Source: Capnocytophaga sp. | Lineage (GTDB): Bacteria; Bacteroidota; Bacteroidia; Flavobacteriales; Flavobacteriaceae | Assembly (NCBI GenBank): GCA_030530525.1 | Contig: JAUMUT010000020.1 | Span: forward strand, 1 to 36,931 | Reading direction: 5' to 3' | Length of the DNA stretch: 36,931 nt | In this document: in pieces, positions 60-28,065 of the stretch | How positions within the stretch are numbered: the first letter of the stretch is position 1 | How the letters are laid out: each line of letters opens with the position of its first letter | Position numbers and translations under genes: made by a program | The notes under the pieces: generated by a model | Database searches by the model: none | Told to the model about the DNA's origin: nothing | What the model saw: the letters and a program-made list of their open reading frames with translations, nothing else

Positions 60-2294
60 TTAATTATTTTCAGAAATACCCATCATCATATTATAATGAG
101 CTATATGTCCTGAGTATTCAAATATTTTTCTAAATACTTTCATATATATTTCTGTAGTTTCATCTTGTGTATCTATTTCCAAAGCATCAGGAAAACAATG
201 AGAACCATCGTTTATCCAATAATATAGAGATCTACATATTTGTTGTTCTTCTAAATTAGGAAAATCTTTTATGATTTTCTCTTCATCTTTATAAGATCCC
301 AAAACTTTAAAGTAGTTTTCCAAAATTCTTCGCATTATATTTTGTATTGTTATTGTAGAAGTTATATTTTTAGATTGCAATTCTTTCCATAACAACTGAT
401 AAGAGGAATTTATAGGATTTTCTTTATCATATGATTGTATAGAACTAATATTTCCATTTTTACGCAAAATCCAATAATTTAATTTATCACTTTTTGCTCC
501 TCTATCCATAAAAGAAACCTCTTTATGGAAATAAACATTATGTGTTAGTAAAATAATTTGTTTTATATTTCCTTTGTATTCATTGTCTTTCATCTCTTTT
601 ATCAAATCTTTTATCAAAGTACTAACAATAAATAATACATTACTATCTAAACTTGAAATGGGATCATCAATTACTAAAATTTTATCCTCGTTTACAACAT
701 CTGCAGAATCTCCTCCTTTGACCTTTTGATAATAATATAAAAAGGTGATAAAGGTTATTTCTCCTTCGCTTAATGTTTTTTGTGCGTCAGACCCATCTTC
801 TCTTTGAATTTCATAAAAACCATTCTCAGAAGAAGGTACTATTTTAAAATTAAGAAATCCAAACGAATTTAAAAGCCTATTAATTTCATCTATGGTAGGT
901 TGTATACTTGTTACATTTTGATTTAATTCTTTTATTTTTTTGTCAATCTCTCTATAATCATTTCTATTTTTTTCTAAAGAATTATTTAATCCGTTTATAC
1001 TTTTCTCTAAGTTATTTTTTTCTTTGTTGAAAGATTCTATCTTTGATTTATATTCTTCTGTAAGATATTTCCACACTAAAGTTATTAATTTATTTTTTTC
1101 TGTTTGGAAATTTTCAACCGTACGATTATAATTTTCTATCTCTTTATTAGCTGAAACGATTAAGTTTAATATAAGTTCTAATTGCTCTTTTAGAAAAACT
1201 AAATCAATACTTCTACTAGGTTCTTTTAGTTTGCTATTTAATAATTCTTTATTGTTGTCATATTGACTAATTAAAGTTCTTATATATGTGGAAAAGATGT
1301 CCAAATTTAATTTTGAAGAATTGATATTCTTCTGGTTAGTTTCAATAATACTTAATTGATTTATAAGATTTTGAACTGACATCTCATATTTTTGTTTTAG
1401 TTCTTTTAAACAAGATATATCACTAATATAGTTTTCATTAAAAAAGCTATTCAATTTTTCTCTAAAATCTTCTGTAATTGTTCTTTCTTGACAAAAAGGA
1501 CAAATATCACTTTCCTCTTGTAGATAATTTTTCCCTTCATATACCCAATCACTAATATTTAAATGGTTTATTAATCCTGCTATATCAATATCAGCTTTTC
1601 CTACTATTTTCTTCTTCCAAATGGGATTATTTTCTATTTCTAAAATAGTATCAAATGAAATAGTATTTATTAACTCTATCATTTGAGGATATTTTCCAAA
1701 AAGAATATTAGCTTTTTCTTTTAATTGTTCATAAGTTAATATATTTGAATTATTACTTTTAAATTCATCTTCCAATCTATTTCTAAACTTATTTTTGCTT
1801 TTTATAGCCCCTGAAAAAGCTTCTGAAAAATCATTTTCATATTCCCTTTTTAAGTTATTCCAACAATCCTCATCAAATTTATTTTCAAGATTTTGTTTTT
1901 CTAACTCTATTTTTTCTAATTGCTTTTTTCTTTCTAAACCTTGTTCTTTAATAGAATTTAATTTTTCTTTTAGGGTATTGATTTCAGCAATTTGTTCTGT
2001 AGTAGCCTGACCAAGAGTGAAAATTCCTTTTAATTTTTCTTGTCCAAAATTTATTTCACGAAATTTTCTATTATACACGAGTGTTTTTATAGGAGTATTA
2101 TTTCTCCATTCAATAGAACATTCTTTATATTTACTATCATTTTCAATTTCAATATCACCAACAAGGTAATTAGAGATAGTTGTTTTTCCTGTTCCATTAG
2201 CTCCATAAATAAAATTTACTTTTTTTAAATTATTGATCTGAATACCTTCATTATTATAGGTTGCTACATTCTTTATTGTAATAGAGTTTATCAT
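60..2294 (-). CDS. AAA_13 family ATPase, RloC/PrrC-like anticodon nuclease candidate
   Basis: Soluble 744-residue protein. It has an N-terminal P-loop (GANGTGKT, residues 31-38), a long coiled-coil middle (about 100-490) interrupted by a CPFC pair (C265, C268) resembling the zinc hook of Rad50 and RloC, an ABC-type signature LSEGE (508-512), a Walker B/D-loop VIDDPISSLD (541-550) and a switch His in the motif LLTHN. The last 90 residues carry R655-x3-E659 and, 40 residues later, H699 in the motif NDGSH. PrrC-type anticodon nucleases use an Arg-x3-Glu...His triad, so an RNA-cutting C-terminal domain is inferred, not proven. Members of this family are tRNA anticodon nucleases that act as phage-infection or DNA-damage effectors. 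The gene is very AT-rich compared with its upstream neighbour, which suggests acquisition. No restriction-modification genes are seen here, but the window ends just downstream. Alternative: an SMC-like defence ATPase without nuclease activity. Confidence 0.8.
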   Translation of the reverse strand: MINSITIKNVATYNNEGIQINNLKKVNFIYGANGTGKTTISNYLVGDIEIENDSKYKECSIEWRNNTPIKTLVYNRKFREINFGQEKLKGIFTLGQATTEQIAEINTLKEKLNSIKEQGLERKKQLEKIELEKQNLENKFDEDCWNNLKREYENDFSEAFSGAIKSKNKFRNRLEDEFKSNNSNILTYEQLKEKANILFGKYPQMIELINTISFDTILEIENNPIWKKKIVGKADIDIAGLINHLNISDWVYEGKNYLQEESDICPFCQERTITEDFREKLNSFFNENYISDISCLKELKQKYEMSVQNLINQLSIIETNQKNINSSKLNLDIFSTYIRTLISQYDNNKELLNSKLKEPSRSIDLVFLKEQLELILNLIVSANKEIENYNRTVENFQTEKNKLITLVWKYLTEEYKSKIESFNKEKNNLEKSINGLNNSLEKNRNDYREIDKKIKELNQNVTSIQPTIDEINRLLNSFGFLNFKIVPSSENGFYEIQREDGSDAQKTLSEGEITFITFLYYYQKVKGGDSADVVNEDKILVIDDPISSLDSNVLFIVSTLIKDLIKEMKDNEYKGNIKQIILLTHNVYFHKEVSFMDRGAKSDKLNYWILRKNGNISSIQSYDKENPINSSYQLLWKELQSKNITSTITIQNIMRRILENYFKVLGSYKDEEKIIKDFPNLEEQQICRSLYYWINDGSHCFPDALEIDTQDETTEIYMKVFRKIFEYSGHIAHYNMMMGISENN

Positions 2295-2384: not shown

Positions 2385-4028
<1,644 letters not shown>

Positions 4029-4032
4029 TTAA

Positions 4033-4524
4033 TTAAAGATCTACGGTAAAAATAACGTTAAGTTGGTTGTCTAAGGCGTGCTGATAAAATTCTAAAATAC
4101 CTTTGCTCCAATCTAATAAATAGTTGAGTTCGTCTTCATCTTTTGGTAGAGAATATTCGTCTTCTCGAATATCTTCAAAATTATTTTTTATGATTTCTTG
4201 AAGGTTGTTTATTTCTAAGTAATCTACGATTTCTTTAATGTCTTTGGCTTTTTTCAAAGAAATGATTTCATTATTATAATCACAGATAATTTCTCCTCCG
4301 AAAATAATATTGTAAGGCACTTTATTTCCTTCTTTCCACGTGCCTTCTCCAAGACAAAACTGAATACCTTCCCACGCCATATCCAATTCCCAACAATCTT
4401 CTGTGGCAAATAATTCTGCTTGGATTTCATCTACCATATATTCGTATCGTTCTTCTATTTTTTGGGCTTTCAGTTGTGCTAATTCTTCATCAGTAATAGC
4501 GTAAAGCATTCCTAATCGTGCCAT
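4033..4524 (-). CDS. DUF1877 (YfbM-like) family protein
   Basis: Small acidic cytoplasmic protein of 163 residues without signal peptide or membrane segment. The start (ARLGMLYAITDEELAQL), the central WEGIQFCLGEG segment and the closing stretch in which residues form a helix then FTVDL fit the DUF1877/YfbM family by eye. No biochemical function is known for the family. It is first in a probable minus-strand pair with the ABC-F gene and is divergent from the Sus-like operon. A TATTTTTG -7 element lies 28 bp upstream of its ATG. Confidence 0.75.
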   Translation of the reverse strand: MARLGMLYAITDEELAQLKAQKIEERYEYMVDEIQAELFATEDCWELDMAWEGIQFCLGEGTWKEGNKVPYNIIFGGEIICDYNNEIISLKKAKDIKEIVDYLEINNLQEIIKNNFEDIREDEYSLPKDEDELNYLLDWSKGILEFYQHALDNQLNVIFTVDL

Positions 4525-18033: not shown

Positions 18034-20139
18034 ATGAAATTTGCTTTGTTTTTTTCAGTTCTCTTTTTAGGAACGCAAAATATTGTAGCTCAGAAAGATA
18101 CATTAAATACAAAAAAAATTATCAAGCTTGATGAGGTAGTGGTTTCGGCGCAAATAGAACCACAATCTGTAAAAAAATCCATAAAAAACGTACAAGTAAT
18201 CTCGCAACAGCAAATAAAAAACTTAGGAGCTACTAATCTTGGAGATGTACTCAATCAATATATAAATATTACCGTTGTGCCAGATGTTAATTCTGGTGGT
18301 TCTACCGTTTCTCTTTTCGGGTTAGATGGAAGTTATTTTAAGATATTAGTAGATAATGTTCCGCTTGTCAATGAAAATGGATTTGGTAATAATACCGATT
18401 TATCTCAAATAAATTTAGATGATATTGAGCGTATTGAAATCATAGAAGGCTCAATGGGAGTAACACACGGAGCCAATGCTGTTAGTGGTATTTTGAATAT
18501 TATCACCAAACGAAAAGCTAATAATAAGTGGGATATTCTCTACTCGGCACAAGAAGAAAGTATAGGAAAAGAATATAATTTTACGGACAAAGGGCGACAT
18601 ATACAAAGTGTTAAAATTTCGCATAATCTAACAGAAAATTGGATGATTACCGCTGGTACTGTCCGAAATAAAAATAATGGTTTCTTTGATGATTTCGGTG
18701 GGAAAAATGTGCTTTCTGACACTCAAAAACGTGGCTATAAATTTTTACCTCGTACCAATATACAAACCAACGCTCTTCTTAATTATAAAAAAAATAACTT
18801 CAATGCGTTTTATAAGTTTGAGCTTATGAATCAAGATGTTAGCTTTTTTAATAGAAATGTACAATCTGGTTATGGGCAAGCTTATGGAGCGTATAAATAC
18901 GGAAATGATAGGAGATTGTATTACGACAGACAATTCCATCATTTGAATTTTAATGGTACTTCTTTTATCAATTATAATCTTTCCTTTTCTTACCAAAAAC
19001 AAACTCGGGAAGAAGAGAAATTCAGATACATTATCAATCACCGAAAAGAAATAAATAACGAACGAAAAAAAGCAGAGTCTATGCAGGTGTTTTATTCCAA
19101 AGGAGATTTTGCTAAGTCTTTCTATGATAAGAAATTAGCTCTTTCCTTAGGTTATGAAATTACTCTAAATAATGGCTTTGCTATTGTAAGTGCGCCACAG
19201 AATAGAACCAAAGAAATTAATGCAAATCTGGATAATTACGATGCTTTTTTAGTTTCTGAATATCATTTTACAGATAATTTTTCTATTAGTGCAGGTGGTA
19301 GATATTCTTGGCAATCTTTATTTGAAAACCAAAATTCTCTTTCTTTTGGCACAAGATATTTATTACCTTATAATATAGAATGGCGAGCTTCCTTAGGGAA
19401 ATCTTTCCGAACTCCAAGTTTTGAAGAATTATATTCCGAAGTGATATTTTCCAATCATTATGTAGTAGGAAACCCAGACTTGTTGCCAGAAAATAGTCTT
19501 TCTTTGGATACAAGTTTTAAGAAAACCACCTCTTTCGCTAACGGAACAATGCTTAAAAATCAAATATCATTGAGTAGAAACCGAATAAAAGATTGGATAA
19601 CAAGAGTAAGAACAGGAACAGAAGGAGGAACGCCTATTTATAAAAATATAAATGTTAGCGAATATAAATACATTAACTTGGCAACTACCAATAATGTACT
19701 GATTCATAATTTTGATATTAATTTGGGGGCTTCTTTTACTTGGAGTTCGCAACTCATTGATACATACCAATATCAAACGGACGATAGAGTATTCCTTAAT
19801 GTCGCAGCGAATTTGGGAGTTACTTACAAAATACCAAAATGGGACGCTTCGGTATCGGCTTATTATAAATGGAAAGGAAAAACACAAGAATGGGTTACCC
19901 TTTTTGATAATTATGCTTTTGGGAATATAGACACCTATGATTGGTTAGATGTATCTGCTAAAAAAACATTTTTCAACAAAAATTTAGAACTTATTTTAGG
20001 AGTAAGAAATGTATTAAATATTATTGATGTTCGTACTTCCTTAGATATGTTAGGACGAGAATATATCCGAAATACACCATTAGGAAACGGAAGAACATTT
20101 TTCGTAAAACTTGCTTATAATTTGAATATTAATTATTAA
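18034..20139 (+). CDS. TonB-dependent outer-membrane receptor, probable haem/HmuR-like
   Basis: 701-residue receptor. It has a signal peptide (1-19, cleaved at IVA-Q), then directly a plug domain (about 30-155: LDEVVVSAQ, DDIERIEIIEGSMGVTHGANAVSGILNIITKR) and a 22-strand-type barrel. It lacks the N-terminal carboxypeptidase-like domain of the SusC-like receptor. The barrel carries the FRTPSFEELY segment common in siderophore and haem receptors. A HmuY-family lipoprotein starts 12 bp after the stop, as in the HmuR-HmuY haem system of Porphyromonas, so haem is the favoured ligand. Other metal chelates or cobalamin remain possible. Confidence 0.9.
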   Translation: MKFALFFSVLFLGTQNIVAQKDTLNTKKIIKLDEVVVSAQIEPQSVKKSIKNVQVISQQQIKNLGATNLGDVLNQYINITVVPDVNSGGSTVSLFGLDGSYFKILVDNVPLVNENGFGNNTDLSQINLDDIERIEIIEGSMGVTHGANAVSGILNIITKRKANNKWDILYSAQEESIGKEYNFTDKGRHIQSVKISHNLTENWMITAGTVRNKNNGFFDDFGGKNVLSDTQKRGYKFLPRTNIQTNALLNYKKNNFNAFYKFELMNQDVSFFNRNVQSGYGQAYGAYKYGNDRRLYYDRQFHHLNFNGTSFINYNLSFSYQKQTREEEKFRYIINHRKEINNERKKAESMQVFYSKGDFAKSFYDKKLALSLGYEITLNNGFAIVSAPQNRTKEINANLDNYDAFLVSEYHFTDNFSISAGGRYSWQSLFENQNSLSFGTRYLLPYNIEWRASLGKSFRTPSFEELYSEVIFSNHYVVGNPDLLPENSLSLDTSFKKTTSFANGTMLKNQISLSRNRIKDWITRVRTGTEGGTPIYKNINVSEYKYINLATTNNVLIHNFDINLGASFTWSSQLIDTYQYQTDDRVFLNVAANLGVTYKIPKWDASVSAYYKWKGKTQEWVTLFDNYAFGNIDTYDWLDVSAKKTFFNKNLELILGVRNVLNIIDVRTSLDMLGREYIRNTPLGNGRTFFVKLAYNLNINY

Positions 20140-20151
20140 TTTATTTTTATA

Positions 20152-21333
20152 ATGAAAAAACACATATTACTTTTTTCTCTTGTAGCAACAATGTTAGCAT
20201 CTTGCTCCAAGGATAATGATGAACCAATCAATACAGGCAACTCAAGTGGCGGAACAGAAGAGCCTTCAAAGCCTAATACGCAACCAGGAATTTCAGTAAA
20301 TGGGAGTGTTTATCAGCCAAATGTAGGTGGTCCAAATCAGCCCAATCAAGTATTTATAGACCTTTCCACAGGTGAGCAAACTGCCGTAAAAAGAGACACT
20401 TGGGATTTTGCTTTCTATTGCGGAAAAGGGAAAAACAATGGAAAAGAAGAATTCCGAGTACTTCTTAATAGCACCATAGGAATGGCTGCCAAAGAATTGC
20501 CTACCAATAATATAACCTTATTGCAAAACGAAGATAACGATGTTGCTCCTGGTCCTTCTACTTATATTGATCAAGGATATGTAGATAGTCCTTATGGAAA
20601 CTTTTTAGGTTCTAAAACAGGTACAGCCATTAAACCTGTATCGGTTAATGATGCTGAAAATAAAGTACATTTAGTAAATATGGGAAAATCCGTAGGTTTA
20701 GAAACACCTGAACTTGGAAGTACCAATTTAGACAGCGGAATACACAGAGGCTGGAAAAAAATTCGGGTTACTATTAATAAAGATGGAGATTATGTCTTTC
20801 AATATGCAGGGCTTAAAGAGAGTACATATAAAGAAATGATAATAAAAAAAGATACAAATTACAACTTTGTTTATATTAATATAGAAGAAGGAAAAGAAGT
20901 AAAAGTACAACCAGAAAAAGCAAAATGGGATATTTCTTATACCGCTTTGGTAACTTATCGAAGTGGGGGAGGTTTAAGCATATATACTTATTTTTCATCA
21001 GATATTGTTATTCATAATGGATATGGTGTAAAAGTAAAAAGAGTAACCTCACAATATGGCAATATAGATAATTTATATAAAAATTTTACAAAAATTAGCG
21101 TAGGAGATGTAGATAACTATTTCAAAATAAATGCAGGTGCTCGTAGCAATTATTTAATGGAAATTGGTAAATCTTGGCGAAAATCAGCATTAGAAGGCGG
21201 TGGCTTACAAAATAATATTTTCTATGTTATCAAAGATGTAGATGGTAATTTATATAAATTAAAATTCTTATCAATGACTAATGAAAAAGGCGAACGCGGT
21301 TATCCTACCTTTGAATATGAATTGTTAAAATAA
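20152..21333 (+). CDS. hmuY: HmuY-family haem-binding lipoprotein
   Basis: 393-residue surface lipoprotein with lipobox LASC (Cys18) followed by SKDNDEP, a good surface-export signal, and a Ser/Gly/Pro-rich linker. The HmuY-type fold is suggested by FIDLSTGEQTAVKRDTWDFAF (about 65-85), a later KWDISYTALVTY repeat of the same WD-x-x-F/Y pattern, and the closing FYVIKDVDGNLYKLKFLSM. HmuY-type proteins capture haem and hand it to a TonB receptor. At 393 residues it is longer than Porphyromonas HmuY (about 216), with extra sequence between the strands. Haem-ligating His or Met residues cannot be assigned from the sequence alone. Confidence 0.8.
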   Translation: MKKHILLFSLVATMLASCSKDNDEPINTGNSSGGTEEPSKPNTQPGISVNGSVYQPNVGGPNQPNQVFIDLSTGEQTAVKRDTWDFAFYCGKGKNNGKEEFRVLLNSTIGMAAKELPTNNITLLQNEDNDVAPGPSTYIDQGYVDSPYGNFLGSKTGTAIKPVSVNDAENKVHLVNMGKSVGLETPELGSTNLDSGIHRGWKKIRVTINKDGDYVFQYAGLKESTYKEMIIKKDTNYNFVYINIEEGKEVKVQPEKAKWDISYTALVTYRSGGGLSIYTYFSSDIVIHNGYGVKVKRVTSQYGNIDNLYKNFTKISVGDVDNYFKINAGARSNYLMEIGKSWRKSALEGGGLQNNIFYVIKDVDGNLYKLKFLSMTNEKGERGYPTFEYELLK

Positions 21334-21336
21334 AAC

Positions 21337-21382
21337 AAAAAATCTTTATTTTGTTAGAAATAGCAAAATAAAGATTTTTTTA
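21337..21382. terminator. Bidirectional terminator between hmuY and pnkp1
   Basis: Perfect 17-bp stem aaaaaatctttattttg / caaaataaagatttttt with a 10-nt loop, between two converging genes. It has an A-run on one side and a T-run on the other. Confidence 0.85.
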
Positions 21383-21385
21383 TAA

Positions 21386-22324
21386 CTAAAAATCACCATA
21401 ATTTACCTGAAAACAAGGCAAACCAAGTTCTTCACGCCACATATTTACCACTTGGTCGCGGTCGTCTAAGATAAATTCTATAAAGTATTTTCCTTGTATT
21501 TCTCGCTCAAAAATTTCTCGTTTTATAATGTTATCTTTTCGGAAATCATTAGTATTTCTCATTATAAGTAAATCATAATCAATATGATATATAGTAAGAA
21601 AACGTTCCGTCGGCTCACGATAAGCCGACTCTCGCCCCGATAAAAGAATAATTTTATAACCTTGTGCTTTTGCCATTGCAAGTGCTCGAGCAACGGGAGT
21701 ATTTAACAAATCTTTATCGCAAGTGCTTGCATCATAAGGGTTTCGCCCATTGAGCAAAGAAAGAGTGCCGTCCAAATCACAAATTATCGCCTTTGGTAGA
21801 TTGGTGTTTTGTTCTACATAATGATTTTTATTTTCTTTAATTGTTCTGCGAATAAGCGAGAAGCTAAATTTTTCTTTCGTATATTGCAACTGCGTAATAT
21901 GTTTTTCTAAGACACTTTTAGAGATAAATTTGCCTGTTTCCGCATAACGTTTATCACAACGAGCCACCAATTCTTCCAAAGATAATTCAAATACTTTAAA
22001 AGAAATATCGGCATATTCCGTAAAAACCCGTACCATATCTTCCAGCGTACGCAAAGAGCTATTTGTGGCGTCTATTATTACGTTGGTATTGTTTTTTAAC
22101 AAAGTAATAACAGAAGCATTTACCATTTTGCTAATACGTTCTTCGTAGAAAGGGGACATCAGCGAGTCGCCAAACTGCATCATTCTAAAATCATCACGAT
22201 TTATGCGTACCCAATTATCTTCCGTCCGAAGAAAATAACGCGCAAAAGTAGATTTTCCAGAGCCTGGCGCACCTACCAAAATCAATAATTTAGGGTTTGG
22301 CTGATTATTTTTATATATACTCAT
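21386..22324 (-). CDS. pnkp1: Pnkp1: RNA 5'-kinase / 3'-phosphatase of the RNA-repair complex
   Basis: 312-residue bifunctional RNA-end-healing enzyme of the T4 polynucleotide kinase type. The N-terminal kinase has P-loop GAPGSGKST (18-26) and the NRDDFR acidic motif (42-47). The C-terminal HAD phosphatase has DLDGT (183-187), NGRNPYD (192-198) and LSGRES (228-233) and ends DDRDQVVNMWRE. It phosphorylates 5'-OH ends and removes 2',3'-cyclic or 3'-phosphates. This differs from the classic bacterial Pnkp, where kinase, a metallophosphatase and ligase are one protein; here the ligase is the separate gene just upstream. Start and stop overlap by 4 bp with rnl, indicating translational coupling. 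Matches the Pnkp1 subunit of the complex characterised from Capnocytophaga gingivalis. Confidence 0.93.
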   Translation of the reverse strand: MSIYKNNQPNPKLLILVGAPGSGKSTFARYFLRTEDNWVRINRDDFRMMQFGDSLMSPFYEERISKMVNASVITLLKNNTNVIIDATNSSLRTLEDMVRVFTEYADISFKVFELSLEELVARCDKRYAETGKFISKSVLEKHITQLQYTKEKFSFSLIRRTIKENKNHYVEQNTNLPKAIICDLDGTLSLLNGRNPYDASTCDKDLLNTPVARALAMAKAQGYKIILLSGRESAYREPTERFLTIYHIDYDLLIMRNTNDFRKDNIIKREIFEREIQGKYFIEFILDDRDQVVNMWREELGLPCFQVNYGDF

Positions 22325-23505
22325 AGTCTGTTATCTAATTGATTTTCAATTTCTTCTCCTAAAATTCTATCCAAAACCAAATTCTTGAAATAATAATTTT
22401 CTTCATTAATTTCTCGGTAAGGAGTTTCTACCAATTTGCGTTGTATTGCCCAGTCATTAATAGAGCAACTTAGCTTACCTTTTATGTTTCGTTTATCTAT
22501 TTGTTCCTTCAATTGATCTTGAAAATCAACGCCATAAATTAATGTTAAATACTGGTTATTACGAACTTTAAACGCAGGCGGTATTCCTTGCAAAAAAGCC
22601 GTTCGGGGCTTGATAACCACGCCTTCTTCATTACTTTGATTTACTTTTTCTACCCAATTTTGTATTTCAGCAAATTTTCTGTTCAAATCTTCTTCATTTT
22701 CTAACGAATAATGTAAAAAACCATCATCGTTAATTTGCTGAAAACTAAGATTATCATTCACAAAATATTCCGAACCATCGGTGTAAATTTCTTTTAAAAT
22801 GTTAAAAGGTTTAAAGTAAATAGCAGCTTCTTTCCCAAAAATATCTAATTGTTCTTTAAAAAGGTTAATATTTTTATGATAACGTTCTAAATCCAGAAAT
22901 TTAAAATGTTCTATGGCAAGATATTGCCGAAGAATATGGAAAGGATATTTTTCTTTTAACTCTTTGTTATTTAGTGTTTTAGCATCTTCAATGAAAGTAC
23001 GATATTCCGTAGTTTGTTTTATTTTTTGGAGTTTTTCATACAAATTACTATTAGACAAATATTCATAATGAATTTGATGAGAAATGTAATATGCTGAAAA
23101 TTCGTCAGTTATAAGACCTTTTCCCATAGCCGACCACGGCATTAATTCCGACTGAATGATACGAATTTCTACCTTTTCCCAATCCAATCGGGCGTGCAAA
23201 TCTTGCAAAGCAGAAAGCCATTTCTCTCGGTTCAGGTGATTAATTAGGTAACCATTTCTACTTACTAAATAAGTGTTATTCAGGTCTTTATGTAAATAAA
23301 TATCACAATATGAGCCCATATATTTTTTCTGAATAACTATCTCTTTCACTCCTTTTTGAACGAACCAAAGCAATCCCTCATAAAGACTTTCTATTTCGTT
23401 GTTTTTCAATGATTTAGGAGCAGGAGAAATAGTAGGCGCAAAAGCATTTATTTTATTTTTACAAAACCAATCAATACGTTTTTTTAACAAAATTTTATCT
23501 TCCAT
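22321..23505 (-). CDS. rnl: Rnl: stand-alone Pnkp-type RNA ligase
   Basis: 394-residue ATP-dependent RNA ligase that corresponds to the C-terminal ligase domain of canonical Pnkp. Nucleotidyl-transferase motif I is KYMG (Lys61 expected to be adenylylated, inside QKKYMGS). Motif IV is EEGVVIKP (293-300). Motif V is KVRN (313-316) in the family-specific setting PPAFKVRNNQYLTLIYG. The C-terminal helical part (334-390) matches the Pnkp-ligase tail. It is expected to seal the ends healed by the kinase/phosphatase, with activation by the Hen1 N-terminal domain. It starts 3 bp after the hen1 stop and overlaps pnkp1 by 4 bp, so the three are one operon. Confidence 0.92.
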   Translation of the reverse strand: MEDKILLKKRIDWFCKNKINAFAPTISPAPKSLKNNEIESLYEGLLWFVQKGVKEIVIQKKYMGSYCDIYLHKDLNNTYLVSRNGYLINHLNREKWLSALQDLHARLDWEKVEIRIIQSELMPWSAMGKGLITDEFSAYYISHQIHYEYLSNSNLYEKLQKIKQTTEYRTFIEDAKTLNNKELKEKYPFHILRQYLAIEHFKFLDLERYHKNINLFKEQLDIFGKEAAIYFKPFNILKEIYTDGSEYFVNDNLSFQQINDDGFLHYSLENEEDLNRKFAEIQNWVEKVNQSNEEGVVIKPRTAFLQGIPPAFKVRNNQYLTLIYGVDFQDQLKEQIDKRNIKGKLSCSINDWAIQRKLVETPYREINEENYYFKNLVLDRILGEEIENQLDNRL

Positions 23506-23508
23506 ATT

Positions 23509-24816
23509 TTATTTATTTTTTTGAATAACCACAGCTTGTGTAGGGCAAATTCCGTTTATTTTATCTCCAATTCCTACAAAATGATAAGAAAAAGCGGTTT
23601 TATTTATACATTTTGTTATAAAATTCTCAAATTCTGTTCTATTCCATTCAAATTTATGGTCATCGTGGCGCATATTTTCTCCTTCAAAATAATGAATGTT
23701 AAATTCACTATTAGGAGTAGTTATGATAATTTTGTTAAAATTAAGAGTTAAAATATATTTTACTAATTTCTCTGCTTCTTCCTCTGTATTATGTTCAATT
23801 ACTTCTGTTAAGATAATATTTACAGTCTTATCATATTGAAAATCAGATAAATTGGTAAAGAAAACTAAATTATCTGCTTCATATCTTTGTTTTAATATTT
23901 CTGCAAAATTAGCCGTTTTTTCGTCTATATCCATTGCGAAATATGGGTGTGTGTAGTTGTAATTTTTTCGCATAAATCGGCGGTAATATTTCAGCTCGCC
24001 GCAGCCAATATCCAAAATAGGAAAATCAAAGCCTAATTCTTTGACAATGAATTTCATACGGCTTCCGTGAGTGTCTTCAAATTGGAAGTCAATATCCATA
24101 TTTTTTCTTTTAAAATAGGCTTCAAAAGAAGGTTTTATTTCTGCGAGTTGTCGTTCGCTTTTTACCGCTTTTTTTATAAAAAGATAGAAAACGAAATAAG
24201 GAACATCGTTAATATTAGTTAAAATACGTACATATTTTTGAGCAAAAGAATCATCAATATATGTATATTCTCCATATTCATTGGTAATATGTGTAGTTAC
24301 TGCAATGAAATTCAATAAGTTAAACGCTTCAAAAATGGTATTTCCTTCCAAAGAAATAGAAATATTATTTCCTGATAAAGGCTTTATTTTCAGTGTTTTA
24401 AAATATCTTTCTAATATGAAATGTCCGTTTTTGTACCAATTGGAATGTACGTACAAATTCTTCACTTCAATACGGCAGGGGAGCGTGTCTATTTCTTGCC
24501 GAGTTTTACCTAACCACTTGATTTCTTGGCTAAAATAAGTTTCTTTTTCTTGTAATAATTCCTTAAAAAATTCATTACAAATATGTAAAATAACCAAAGG
24601 CGAGCAATAGCTCTGAAAATCAATTTGGTTGCTTTCTTCGGCGAGATAGCTGTACCGAGTGTCTTGGAAGAAAACATCGTACTGGTTAGGGCTTACAGCA
24701 TTCCCGATAATTTGCCCATTTCGTAAAGATTTGGCATAAATTCCAAAATCTGTATTTGGGTTTTTGTTTAAAATATCTAATAATTTAGAGTTTTCTGAAT
24801 AAATTTGTATAATCAT
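23509..24816 (-). CDS. hen1: Hen1: RNA 3'-terminal ribose 2'-O-methyltransferase with ligase-activating domain
   Basis: 435-residue protein. Residues 1-220 match the bacterial Hen1 N-terminal domain that activates the partner ligase (NPNTDFGIYAKS; VFFQDTRYSYLAEES). Residues about 240-435 are the methyltransferase: SAM motif ILDIGCG (267-273), metal-binding EVIEH (E338, E341, H342) and the Hen1 signature RHDDHKFEW (H384, H387). It methylates the 2'-OH of the 3' end of cleaved RNA, so that the repaired site resists being cut again. First gene of the hen1-rnl-pnkp1 set; trpS ends 73 bp upstream on the same strand and the gap has no TAnnTTTG element on that strand, so the upstream promoter is likely that of trpS (inference). 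Confidence 0.93.
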   Translation of the reverse strand: MIIQIYSENSKLLDILNKNPNTDFGIYAKSLRNGQIIGNAVSPNQYDVFFQDTRYSYLAEESNQIDFQSYCSPLVILHICNEFFKELLQEKETYFSQEIKWLGKTRQEIDTLPCRIEVKNLYVHSNWYKNGHFILERYFKTLKIKPLSGNNISISLEGNTIFEAFNLLNFIAVTTHITNEYGEYTYIDDSFAQKYVRILTNINDVPYFVFYLFIKKAVKSERQLAEIKPSFEAYFKRKNMDIDFQFEDTHGSRMKFIVKELGFDFPILDIGCGELKYYRRFMRKNYNYTHPYFAMDIDEKTANFAEILKQRYEADNLVFFTNLSDFQYDKTVNIILTEVIEHNTEEEAEKLVKYILTLNFNKIIITTPNSEFNIHYFEGENMRHDDHKFEWNRTEFENFITKCINKTAFSYHFVGIGDKINGICPTQAVVIQKNK

Positions 24817-24889
24817 ATAGTAAAAAATTAAAAAAAGTAAAGGGAAAAGGAAAATAAAAGCCTTTTAGAGGTGATTTTGTTGGTAGTTT

Positions 24890-25858
24890 TTAATAACCTA
24901 TCTTTTCTCTTACACGTTTTAGAGTGTTTTCTGCTATTTTAGCTGCTTTTATAGCACCTTTTTCTAAAATTTGGTCAATTTCGTTGGTGTTATTTATATA
25001 ATAATCAAATTTTCGTCTTGGTTCTGCAAATTTTTCCAAAATAAGTTCTAACAAGGCAGTTTTAGCGTGTCCGTAGCCATAGCCTCCCGCTTGGTATTTT
25101 GCTCGCATTTGTTTTACATCTTCCTCAGAGGCTAATAGTTTGTAAATAGCAAAAACGTTGCAAGTATCGGGATTTTTAGGTTCTTCTAATGGTGTGCTAT
25201 CGGTTTGTATAGCCATTACTTGTTTTTTTATTTCTTTTTCAGAAAGGAAAATATTAATAAAATTATTCCGAGATTTGCTCATTTTTTCGCCATCTGTGCC
25301 AGGAATTATCATAATATCTTCTTTTATTCGAGCCTCTGGCAATACGAAAGTTTCGCCCATTTGGTGGTTGAATTTGGCTGCCACATCGCGAGTGATTTCA
25401 ATATGTTGTAGTTGGTCTTTCCCGACAGGAACAAATTGAGCATCGTACAGAAGAATGTCAGCCGCCATAAGCATTGGGTAGGTGAAAAGTCCTGTATTTA
25501 CATCGTCCAATCGGTCTGCTTTATCTTTAAAAGAATGCGCCAAAGTAAGCCTTTGATAGGGGAAAAAACAGCTCAAATACCAAGAAAGTTCGGTGGTTTG
25601 TGGTACGTCACTTTGTCGGTAAAAAGTAATACGCTCATAATCTAAGCCAAAAGCGAGCCAAGTAGCGGCAACTCCGTACGTATTTTCACGAAGTAAAGCT
25701 CCGTTTTTTATTTGAGTGAGCGAATGCATATCTGCAATAAACAGAAAAGAGTCGTTCTGAGGCTGATTTGCCATTTCAAGGGCAGGAAGGATAGCACCTA
25801 AAATATTTCCTAAATGAGGCACTCCTGTACTTTGTATGCCTGTGAGTATTCTTGCCAT
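24890..25858 (-). CDS. trpS: Tryptophanyl-tRNA synthetase
   Basis: 322-residue class I aminoacyl-tRNA synthetase charging tRNA-Trp. HIGH-type motif PHLGN (14-18) within the first 20 residues, KMSKS in GEKMSKSRNN (about 200-210), and the segment LLYDAQFVPVGKDQLQHIE. Length and sequence are normal. A good promoter (TTTG-N19-TACTTTTG) lies just upstream. The gene precedes the RNA-repair genes with no visible promoter between. Confidence 0.97.
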   Translation of the reverse strand: MARILTGIQSTGVPHLGNILGAILPALEMANQPQNDSFLFIADMHSLTQIKNGALLRENTYGVAATWLAFGLDYERITFYRQSDVPQTTELSWYLSCFFPYQRLTLAHSFKDKADRLDDVNTGLFTYPMLMAADILLYDAQFVPVGKDQLQHIEITRDVAAKFNHQMGETFVLPEARIKEDIMIIPGTDGEKMSKSRNNFINIFLSEKEIKKQVMAIQTDSTPLEEPKNPDTCNVFAIYKLLASEEDVKQMRAKYQAGGYGYGHAKTALLELILEKFAEPRRKFDYYINNTNEIDQILEKGAIKAAKIAENTLKRVREKIGY

Positions 25859-25877
25859 AATTTTTTATTTAAGAGTA

Positions 25878-25908
25878 CAAAAGTAAAAAATAATTATCAA
25901 TTAGCAAA
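25878..25908 (-). promoter_or_regulatory. trpS promoter
   Basis: Minus strand TTTG (25908-25905), 19-bp spacer, TACTTTTG (25885-25878): a full Bacteroidota promoter. A 10-bp inverted repeat AAATAATTAT-N10-ATAATTATTT (25888-25917) overlaps it and the sulfatase stop codon, and may serve as a weak terminator for the sulfatase. Confidence 0.8.
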
Positions 25909-25911
25909 TAA

Positions 25912-27420
25912 TTATTTGTTGGTATTTATTATGTTATTTAAAATTTCTTTTAGTTCCGCTACTTTTTCGGGGTATAATTTGGCAACATTAGCCAATTCTG
26001 CAGGGTCTTCTTTAAGGTCATAGAGTTGTTCTTCTGGATAATTGCCTAAATGGCTACGTGTAAGTGCGTTATAAGCGAGTTGATTGCTTGGGGCAATGTA
26101 TTTCCATCTTCCGTCAGTTATAGCAAGCGAACCACCTGACGCAATAACGTAAGGTCTTCCTTTTTTATCTTTTCCTAATAATGTATTTAGGTAATTTTTA
26201 CTATCCGTAGCCACTCCTGTTGGAATATCTTTACCAATAAATTGCGCTAACGAAGCAAATAAATCTATCTGAGAGAAGAGCGCATTTGTAGTTCCTTTTT
26301 TTATTTTTTTAGGATAACTTACAATAAAAGGAACACGCGTTCCTGCTTCATAGTTGCTATATTTTCCGCCGTGATTATGAAAAATACTCCACGGGCGATG
26401 TTTGCCCAAGAGTTCTTCGGCTTGATCTTGGTAGCCATCATCTATAACAGGACCATTGTCACTACATAAAATGATAAGTGTATTATCATAAATTTTGTTA
26501 TTTTTCAATGTTTTAACAATTTCACCTACTGTGGCATCAAATTGTAAAATAACATCTCCTCTGTAACCCATACCACTTTTACCCATAAAACGAGGATTAG
26601 GATAGCGTGGCACGTGTATATCATTAGTACCAACGTATAGAAAAAAAGGATTATTTTTATTATTTTTGATAAAATTAGTTGTTTTAGCGATAATAGTATC
26701 GGCTAAATGTTCGTCTTCCCACAATGCTTTTCCTCCGCCTTTCATATAACCAATACGCGAAATACCATTTACTATTGCTTGGTCGTGTCCGTGGTTGGGA
26801 GAAGGTTTTAGCTTGGTAAGTAGCTCAGGGTGTGTTTTCCCAGTGGGTTCGCCTTCAAAAGGGGAGAGATAATCCACCTCAATAGGGGCAGAAACGTCAT
26901 AATTTGCTACTTGTTGATTTTCTATCCAAACACAAGGAACGCGGTCGGCAGTAGCAGCCATTAAAAAAGAGTAGTCAAAGCCAATATCAGCGGGTCCAGG
27001 TGAAATTATTCCGTTCCAGTTTTGTCCTCCTTTCTCTGCGCCCAAACCTAAGTGCCATTTGCCAATAGCTGCTGTGGTGTAGTCTGCACTTTTAAAAATA
27101 TCGGCAATGGTAGTTTGTTCAGGACGAATAACCATTGCAGCATCACCATCGGCAATGCCTGTATCTTTTCTTCGCCAATTGTAATGCCCTGTCAGGATAG
27201 AATATCGCGACGGAGTGCAGGTAGCGGCGGTAGTGTGAGCGTTGGTAAATCGTAATCCTTGTTGCGCCAAAGCATCAACGTGAGGCGTATGAATGGTCTT
27301 TTCGCCATAACAACTCAAATCGCCATAGCCCAAATCATCAGCAACAATAAGAATAACGTTAGGTTTTTGGTTTTGCGCCATTAACAAAAATGGACAAAGA
27401 AGTAATAAAAAATATTTCAT
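25912..27420 (-). CDS. Secreted/periplasmic sulfatase (arylsulfatase A-like)
   Basis: 502-residue sulfatase with signal peptide (1-15, cleavage at LLMAQ). Metal site DDLGYGD (28-34, Asp28/Asp29); Cys-type formylglycine motif CTPSR (Cys68-Arg72) followed by YSILTGH; later LCSDNGP with the second Asp-Asn pair. The enzyme removes sulfate esters from sulfated glycans or glycolipids, and needs an anaerobic-type sulfatase-maturing enzyme or FGE encoded elsewhere. The ATG at 27420 was chosen: the longer frame from 27474 overlaps a full promoter (27444-27475). It is not in a Sus-type operon in this window, so the substrate is open. Confidence 0.93.
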   Translation of the reverse strand: MKYFLLLLCPFLLMAQNQKPNVILIVADDLGYGDLSCYGEKTIHTPHVDALAQQGLRFTNAHTTAATCTPSRYSILTGHYNWRRKDTGIADGDAAMVIRPEQTTIADIFKSADYTTAAIGKWHLGLGAEKGGQNWNGIISPGPADIGFDYSFLMAATADRVPCVWIENQQVANYDVSAPIEVDYLSPFEGEPTGKTHPELLTKLKPSPNHGHDQAIVNGISRIGYMKGGGKALWEDEHLADTIIAKTTNFIKNNKNNPFFLYVGTNDIHVPRYPNPRFMGKSGMGYRGDVILQFDATVGEIVKTLKNNKIYDNTLIILCSDNGPVIDDGYQDQAEELLGKHRPWSIFHNHGGKYSNYEAGTRVPFIVSYPKKIKKGTTNALFSQIDLFASLAQFIGKDIPTGVATDSKNYLNTLLGKDKKGRPYVIASGGSLAITDGRWKYIAPSNQLAYNALTRSHLGNYPEEQLYDLKEDPAELANVAKLYPEKVAELKEILNNIINTNK

Positions 27421-27443
27421 TTTATGATTAGTTTTGATTCTTG

Positions 27444-27475
27444 CAAAAATAGTATTTTTTTCTCTAATTAACAAA
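27444..27475 (-). promoter_or_regulatory. Sulfatase promoter
   Basis: Minus strand TTTG (27475-27472), 20-bp spacer, TATTTTTG (27451-27444). Full consensus match, 24 bp before the ATG at 27420; this fixes the start codon. Confidence 0.8.
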
Positions 27476-27532
27476 ATATTATTAATTTATAAGTGTTTTT
27501 ATTATTTGTCAATTCATTATAAAAAATAAATG

Positions 27533-27540
27533 TAAATTTG
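27533..27540 (+). promoter_or_regulatory. -7 element of the alkyltransferase gene
   Basis: TAAATTTG, 12 bp before the ATG. The nearest TTTG (27505-27508) is 24 bp upstream, longer than usual. Confidence 0.45.
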
Positions 27541-27552
27541 CAAAAAAAATAA

Positions 27553-28065
27553 ATGAATAAAATTTACAGAAAAGAAATATATTCGCCGTTAGGCACACTT
27601 ATTGTTTGTGCTTCGGAAAATGGGATTTGTTTATTAGAATTTTCAGACGGAAAAGGGCTAGAAACGGAGCTAAAACAAATAGAAAAATCATTAAAAGCAA
27701 AAATAAAAGACGGAGAAAATCCTTTATTTGCCATATTAGAAACAGAATTAAATCTTTATTTTCAAGGTAAATTAAAACAATTTTCCGTTCCTTTACAACC
27801 TATCGGGACAGATTTTCAAAAGAAAGTTTGGGAAGAACTTTGTAAGATAAGTTACGGGAAAACAATTAGTTACCAGCGACAAGCTAATAATTTAGATATT
27901 CCTAAATCCGTTCGAGCAGTAGCCAATGCCAATGGGCAAAATAAAATAGCAATTCTTATTCCGTGCCACAGAGTGATAGGAACAAACGGGAAGCTAACAG
28001 GCTATGCGGGAGGCATTTGGCGAAAAGAAAAACTTTTGGAAATAGAAAAAAATCATTTTATTTAA
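27553..28065 (+). CDS. ogt: Methylated-DNA--protein-cysteine methyltransferase
   Basis: 170-residue suicide DNA-repair protein that moves an alkyl group from O6-alkylguanine to its own Cys138, in IPCHRVIG (136-143). It has the N-terminal ribonuclease-H-like domain (YSPLGTLIVCASENGICLLEF) and the DNA-binding helix-turn-helix segment with the arginine finger (SVRAVANANG, 119-128). Length is typical of the Ogt/MGMT single-domain class, without an Ada regulatory domain. Monocistronic: own promoter upstream and strong terminator downstream. Confidence 0.96.
   Translation: MNKIYRKEIYSPLGTLIVCASENGICLLEFSDGKGLETELKQIEKSLKAKIKDGENPLFAILETELNLYFQGKLKQFSVPLQPIGTDFQKKVWEELCKISYGKTISYQRQANNLDIPKSVRAVANANGQNKIAILIPCHRVIGTNGKLTGYAGGIWRKEKLLEIEKNHFI

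Follow-up and report, generated by a model that had tools for sequence, protein, structure and literature searches.

The closest described relative of the system considered here is the RNA repair complex of Capnocytophaga gingivalis, a heterohexamer of Pnkp1, Rnl and Hen1 that has been crystallised (PDB 4XRP and 4XRU; Wang, 2015, PMC4411300). According to the accessible part of that article, Pnkp1 heals both ends of a broken RNA in vitro through its kinase and phosphatase, Hen1 methylates the 2'-OH and Rnl seals the break, and all three proteins are required for the mending of cut tRNA. tRNA cut by colicin D was mended by the complex, and repair in the presence of S-adenosylmethionine gave stronger resistance to colicin D. 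The same part of the article places hen1 far from the rnl-pnkp1 operon in all 10 species considered, C. gingivalis included. The locus described here comes from Capnocytophaga sp. (contig JAUMUT010000020.1, of which the whole stretch of 36,931 nucleotides analysed is termed the window), and in it the three genes stand together as one compact operon.

By sequence, the window trio is the same complex as that of C. gingivalis, its products being full-length orthologues of the three subunits. Each chain of 4xrp was matched over its full length (chains A, B and C of 4xrp/4xru), with E values of 2.2e-164 for Pnkp1 and 4xrp_A, 9.3e-200 for Rnl and 4xrp_B, and 7.5e-215 for Hen1 and 4xrp_C, which exclude a chance match. 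Full-length identity to the copies in the C. gingivalis genome is 77.2% for Pnkp1, 74.4% for Rnl and 71.2% for Hen1, and the proteins measure 312, 394 and 435 amino acids (aa) in the window as compared with 312, 394 and 436 aa in C. gingivalis. The initial annotation of this locus had claimed a complete three-gene repair operon at 21386..24816, and the list of open reading frames (ORFs) returns exactly these outer coordinates, with three full-length frames inside them. The catalytic motifs that it had called intact were all located, namely GAPGSGKST (the P-loop) at residue 18 and DLDGT (DxDGT) at 183 of Pnkp1, KYMG at 61 and EGVVIKP at 294 of Rnl, and EVIEH at 338 and RHDDHKFEW at 383 of Hen1, and none of them is missing in the alignment to the C. 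gingivalis complex. Among the 22 interface residues named by Wang (2015), which cover the Pnkp1 dimer and the Pnkp1-Rnl contacts, 21 are identical in the window proteins (kinase dimer 6/6, phosphatase dimer 7/8, Pnkp1-Rnl contacts 4/4 and 4/4), the exception being V214, which is replaced by A. The three genes contain no internal stops, and the ratio of nonsynonymous to synonymous substitution (dN/dS) lies at 0.02-0.06 for them in two pairs of related species; for the window and C. gingivalis no such ratio is given, because dS is saturated.

The observation stands, and what it describes is an already known machine with its genes in an order that is less well documented. The reading of the healing enzyme as T4-type with a HAD phosphatase, and of the ligase as separate, agrees with both the Pfam and the PDB matches, Pnkp1 matching T4 Pnk (1ltq) at E 1.8e-37 and HAD_PNKP at E 6.6e-50. 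The HAD phosphatase that the initial annotation had presented as a swap is indeed present; however, it is not special to the window, and since the replacement of the metallophosphatase already belongs to the known complex, the system is not new. Likewise, the attribution of the complex to C. gingivalis stands on the identity of the subunits, but the three-gene operon was overlooked as a difference from the distant hen1 of that species. The statement that the genes overlap or abut proved accurate, as hen1 and rnl are separated by 3 bases and rnl and pnkp1 overlap by 4, in the transcription order hen1-rnl-pnkp1.

It is very probable, on the joint evidence of the protein comparisons and of the gene orders discussed below, that the trio is a Pnkp1-Rnl-Hen1 system that mends and methyl-protects cut RNA and whose compact order is most likely the older one. 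The reactions of the window proteins would follow those of C. gingivalis, given the full-length identity, the kept active-site motifs and the kept interface residues. In this mechanism, a metal-independent ribonuclease toxin would cut an RNA and leave a 5'-OH and a 2',3'-cyclic phosphate; Pnkp1 would phosphorylate the 5' end and remove the phosphate from the 3' end, after which Hen1, the N-terminal domain of which presumably activates the ligase, would methylate the exposed 2'-OH, and Rnl would join the ends into an RNA resistant to the same toxin. The compact hen1-rnl-pnkp1 arrangement would allow all three subunits to be made from one message. The biochemistry is already known, and the compact operon lends itself to knock-out and expression studies as one naturally occurring unit.

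Gene order was compared in 20 Capnocytophaga genomes. Rnl and Hen1 each occur in nine of them, and in the same nine, a coincidence that has a probability of 6e-6 under independence with kinship ignored, and pnkp1 adjoins rnl on its downstream side in every one of these carriers. The trio is contiguous in four (the window genome, G252, G303 of C. felis and G315) and split in five (G304 of C. gingivalis, G307 of C. periodontitidis, G309, G310, and G314 of C. sputigena), where hen1 and rnl-pnkp1 share a contig in G310, at a distance of ~1.2 Mb, and lie on separate contigs in the other four. The order hen1-rnl-pnkp1 is also contiguous in all six Flavobacterium-type genomes (two named Flavobacterium and four of one other genus), and because these outgroups agree, the contiguous order was probably the ancestral one, from which the published split arrangement would be derived. 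This comparison suggests that the organism whose complex was crystallised carries the derived layout. In the three other contiguous Capnocytophaga genomes, the operon is flanked by a SucC-type gene (ATP-grasp and CoA-ligase domains) and pheT, and hen1 still lies within ~18 kb of pheT in G304 and within ~12 kb in G309, which hints that it was rnl-pnkp1 that left an ancestral pheT site. No clean empty site was seen in pheT-region stretches of 12-20 kb from six other genomes, none of which gave a sucC match; in G312, three other neighbours are kept ~5 kb from pheT. The Rnl tree places the split genomes in one group (99/94), with the window joining that group (100/100).

A stand-alone Rnl of this kind is rare, being found in 3 of 299 genomes of the family (seven were matched, the other four in frames of 860-870 aa of the fused-Pnkp type) and in 5 of 395 genomes of the phylum at E 1e-10. 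The Flavobacterium-type clusters have neighbours of their own: a second RNA ligase of the T4 Rnl1 type (PF09511; best PDB match T4 RNA ligase 1) upstream of hen1 in five of the six, a protein of 242-256 aa that is faintly ABC-3C CTD12-like in four, and TatD downstream in all six. Among the literature matches listed, no title or abstract opening deals with the contiguous order or with a phage fusion, subscription papers and supplements being out of view, and Wang (2015) is, by title or abstract, the only paper on the bacterial complex, the supplements of which may draw a contiguous operon.

The closest Rnl sequences found beyond the Flavobacteriaceae (39-40% identical) lie on two IMG/VR contigs, one of 335 kb and one of 184 kb, in both of which hen1 stands upstream of rnl, with two small ORFs between them in the former and one in the latter. 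In a PHROGs check, three of five proteins of the 184-kb contig matched, as terminase, portal and tail sheath; three of five also matched in the 335-kb contig, as weak tail matches, GroEL and a dehydrogenase, so that the case for a phage origin leans more on IMG/VR there. In both trees, the Rnl and Hen1 proteins of the two contigs cluster with their bacterial counterparts (100/99 and 100/95), a placement to be taken with caution for its long branches. On the 335-kb contig, a further RNA ligase (PF09414) is encoded ~0.9 kb upstream of hen1, so that two ligases surround one Hen1. In the Vibrio phages RYC and vB_VpaM_sm033, rnl is followed by a single protein that unites Hen1_N, methyltransferase, kinase and HAD_PNKP, and a third such pair of rnl and fusion was found at IMG/VR locus L093. 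All three fusions retain the kinase, HAD and ExxEH motifs; two retain RHxDH, and L093 has RDDDH in its place. With the RYC fusion as query, 1,903 of 50,697 phage records were matched, at least 80% of the query being covered in two, RYC itself included; when the sm033 fusion was the sole query of a viral scan, nothing matched, and a scan with an alignment of two fusions returned Hen1 relatives and no fusion. The window Pnkp1 alone matches 2,597 of the same records, and in 1,990 the match spans at least 80% of this query. In phages XacN1 and CM1, genes for a kinase-only protein, Hen1 and Rnl are adjacent; the HAD profile has no match in either, and in CM1 a HAD-like DLDDT motif stands near the start of a small ORF that lies 1.4 kb beyond rnl. 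PNKP and Hen1 homologues are noted in the accessible part of the XacN1 paper (PMC5852040), and a survey of jumbo phages treats RNA repair, with Hen1 and Pnkp absent from such main text as is accessible (PMC7824862). Plasmids of Paenibacillus and Enterococcus carry hen1 together with a protein of ~860 aa that ends in a ligase domain; on the Paenibacillus plasmid, a gene for a Thg1-type tRNA(His) guanylyltransferase follows close after hen1-Pnkp.

The viral hen1-rnl contigs and the three fusion records support a module common to phages and Flavobacteriaceae. It may be, and we propose this tentatively as somewhat short of an even chance, that Hen1, a T4-type Pnkp and Rnl form one mobile repair-and-immunise module of large phages and Flavobacteriaceae, in which the two-protein machine of the phages would undo the tRNA-cutting defences of the host and leave resistant tRNAs behind, the bacterial operon being a domesticated form whose older version was contiguous and which was split later in C. 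gingivalis. The phage fusions are independent evidence that the three proteins work together, and they point to the conflict between phage and host over tRNA as a place to seek the trigger. What is most interesting about the finding lies outside the window, namely the forms carried by phages and a gene order that is likely ancestral.

Several observations weigh against the proposed reading of the trio or fall short of it. The split genomes form a weaker group in the Hen1 (90/94) and Pnkp1 (63/39) trees, the window is not resolved in the 15-row trees of these two proteins, and a 29-row Hen1 tree places it outside the other eight Capnocytophaga (87/80). A tree of the single gene trpS is at odds with the split having happened once, as G304 and G309 fall beside the window and not with the other split genomes. 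The operon is patchy, the trpS tree forcing at least five gains or losses, and its presence is no more clustered than shuffled labels are (476 of 500 shuffles were as low); two of the 11 operon-free genomes (G311 and G313) are less than 90% complete. Given the conflict of the trpS tree and the scattered presence, horizontal transfer or two independent splits may have occurred. The chromosomal site of the window operon is not common to the 10 relatives examined around trpS, as 14 neighbour proteins of the window (trpS aside) found no match in the trpS loci of 19-20 kb of these relatives. For the phages, no Pnkp1 match was found in the two viral contigs (L077 and L078), which may be fragments, and the direction of exchange is not settled by phylogeny: in the Rnl tree the two phage contigs are sister to the bacteria, and in the Hen1 tree they are successive branches without full support, many of the branches being long. 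As regards function, the window genome also encodes RtcB, another RNA ligase, and the trio need therefore not be its sole repair route. Nor was a nuclease found that tracks the operon, although only two, the PrrC-like protein and Cas13b, were sought across the genus. RtcB itself occurs in 16 of the 20 genomes and in all nine carriers (Fisher p 0.09), and with RtcB in every carrier a replacement of one by the other shows no pattern.

The role of the trio is most likely recovery from an RNA-cutting attack on the translation machinery, whether by rival bacteria or by the cell's own anti-phage nucleases. The physiological trigger had been called unsettled at the outset, and the in vivo substrates are stated to be unknown in the accessible part of Wang (2015; PMC4411300). 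The view taken there, that the operon mainly counters RNA-cleaving toxins from neighbouring bacteria of the oral biofilm, is one to which we would give slightly less than an even chance. It draws on the mending of colicin-D-cut tRNA and on the greater colicin D resistance of the methylated product, and the patchy presence of the operon fits an accessory shield; however, a Pfam scan of five flanking genes found no toxin or immunity family, and because Flavobacterium-type genomes carry the operon as well, an oral setting is not required. It is rather unlikely, by comparison, that the chief task of the operon is to restore the tRNAs of its own cell once that cell's anti-phage nucleases have fired, so that survivors recover. 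The window does encode a candidate tRNA anticodon nuclease, a PrrC/RloC-like AAA_13 ATPase for which a solved-structure match was sought and none obtained. Its C-terminus has the pattern R655-x3-E659...H699, kept in all three copies found in the genus, the window's included; we take this pattern to resemble the PrrC nuclease triad, the positions of which we assume. A Cas13a has been described to cut tRNA anticodons (accessible part of PMC11042736), and the single genome with Cas13b (G315) is also an operon carrier. However, the PrrC-like gene lies 19 kb from the operon with unrelated genes between, and occurs in 3 of the 20 genomes, in two of nine with the operon versus one of 11 without (Fisher p 0.57), which rejects it as an obligate partner; Cas13b, found in that one genome of 20 and absent from the window genome, is rejected as a partner too. 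Beside the PrrC-like gene lie genes for an ABC-F-type protein and a DUF1877 protein. Far less probable is a role in processing or end-protecting normal small RNAs, as eukaryotic HEN1 has: homology of Hen1 is in its favour, but Hen1 is here strictly accompanied by kinase-phosphatase and ligase and is fused to the former in phages, in vitro, cut tRNA was repaired only with all three proteins present (PMC4411300, accessible part), and the distribution is patchy. That the operon is a decaying acquired remnant, as its site, not common to the relatives around trpS, might suggest, is barely credible for genes free of stops, with listed motifs kept, 71-77% full-length identity and dN/dS of 0.02-0.06 in relatives, the window's own dS being saturated.

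Table 1. Coordinates of the repair genes, their signals and neighbours, and related loci elsewhere (positions are those of the window unless a locus is named).
Feature	Position	Strand	Description
hen1	23509-24816	-	435 aa ORF, leading the trio; predicted ligase-activating N-terminal domain (Hen1_N of Pfam, residues 2-235) plus a 2'-O-methyltransferase domain
rnl	22321-23505	-	394 aa ORF; Pfam PNKP_ligase and RNA_ligase; stand-alone ligase, middle gene
pnkp1	21386-22324	-	312 aa ORF; N-terminal 5'-kinase (P-loop, AAA_33) and C-terminal HAD 3'-phosphatase (HAD_PNKP), T4 Pnkp type
A+T-rich hairpin	21337-21380	.	convergent gap between HmuY-type gene and pnkp1; -14.5 kcal/mol, z -4.94
trpS	24890-25858	-	upstream of hen1, same strand, 73-base gap
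Bacteroidota-type promoter-like site	25878-25907	-	TTG-spacer-TAnnTTTG, immediately upstream of trpS; weak evidence
PrrC/RloC-like AAA_13 ATPase	60-2294	-	candidate tRNA anticodon nuclease; PF13166 610 bits, full length; PADLOC PDC-S06 E 6.5e-271; PrrC E 2.1e-11
ABC-F-type and DUF1877 proteins	2385-4524	-	ABC_tran and ABC_tran_Xtn domains, and TTG start as listed, for the ABC-F-type protein
Hen1-kinase-HAD fusions beside stand-alone Rnl	L079:7155-9335, L080:7119-9272, L093:7351-9480		709-726 aa
Further RNA ligase, 335-kb contig	L077:1585-2673		PF09414
Thg1-type gene, Paenibacillus plasmid	L083:7727-8437		tRNA(His) guanylyltransferase
Flavobacterium-type cluster neighbours	L029:6811-8630, L030:6824-8630, L044:11693-14262, L139, L140

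Co-transcription of the trio is supported by the spacing and common strand of the genes and by the placement of a hairpin after pnkp1 only (Table 1). This hairpin, which none of 200 shuffles equalled in stability and which is missing from the output of a scan for G+C-rich terminators, is likely a transcription terminator common to pnkp1 and the convergent HmuY-type gene. It is possible that trpS is the lead gene of the operon transcript in the window genome. The promoter-like site before trpS follows what we take to be the Bacteroidota promoter consensus; it is the sole minus-strand match within 21300-26100, with 12 such matches on that strand in the whole window, and no match was found between trpS and hen1. 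A sigma-70 scan gave 21 promoter-like sites against 25.9 expected and hence no signal, and the window holds no tRNA, nor any Rfam match within 19000-27600. A conserved linkage to trpS was considered and rejected, as trpS is present in all 20 genomes, yet does not adjoin the operon in the other eight carriers. Two unrelated sites bring the operon next to an aminoacyl-tRNA synthetase gene: trpS lies upstream of it in the window, and pheT lies downstream in three other species (L031, L032 and L033). The operon may stand beside such genes by chance.

Among the known systems compared, Borg elements, which are archaeal extrachromosomal elements, carry putative clusters that their authors name as the same Pnkp1-Rnl-Hen1 complex (PMC11208441, accessible part). 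Bacterial Pnkp-Hen1 carries out the same four reactions with a Hen1-dependent ligase (PMC4411300, accessible part); however, it fuses kinase, metallophosphatase and ligase, whereas the window has a separate ligase and a HAD phosphatase, and assignment to this fused class is rejected by scores far under the TIGR04075 and TIGR04074 cut-offs; NCBIfam bacter_Pnkp gives no more than 30.1 and 62.0, where the cut-off stands at 750. With phage T4 Pnkp and Rnl1, the window Pnkp1 shares the T4 Pnkp domain order and the HAD phosphatase, but the window ligase belongs to the Pnkp-ligase family, and Hen1 is added. RYC, vB_VpaM_sm033 and L093 likewise set a stand-alone Rnl beside Hen1, kinase and HAD phosphatase, the latter three fused in the phages into a two-protein version. 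The C. gingivalis complex is nearest of all, in subunit lengths, identity, motifs and interface residues, and differs in gene order, as hen1 adjoins rnl-pnkp1 in the window and lies far away in C. gingivalis according to the accessible part of PMC4411300, the trio of that species being split in our genome scan as well.

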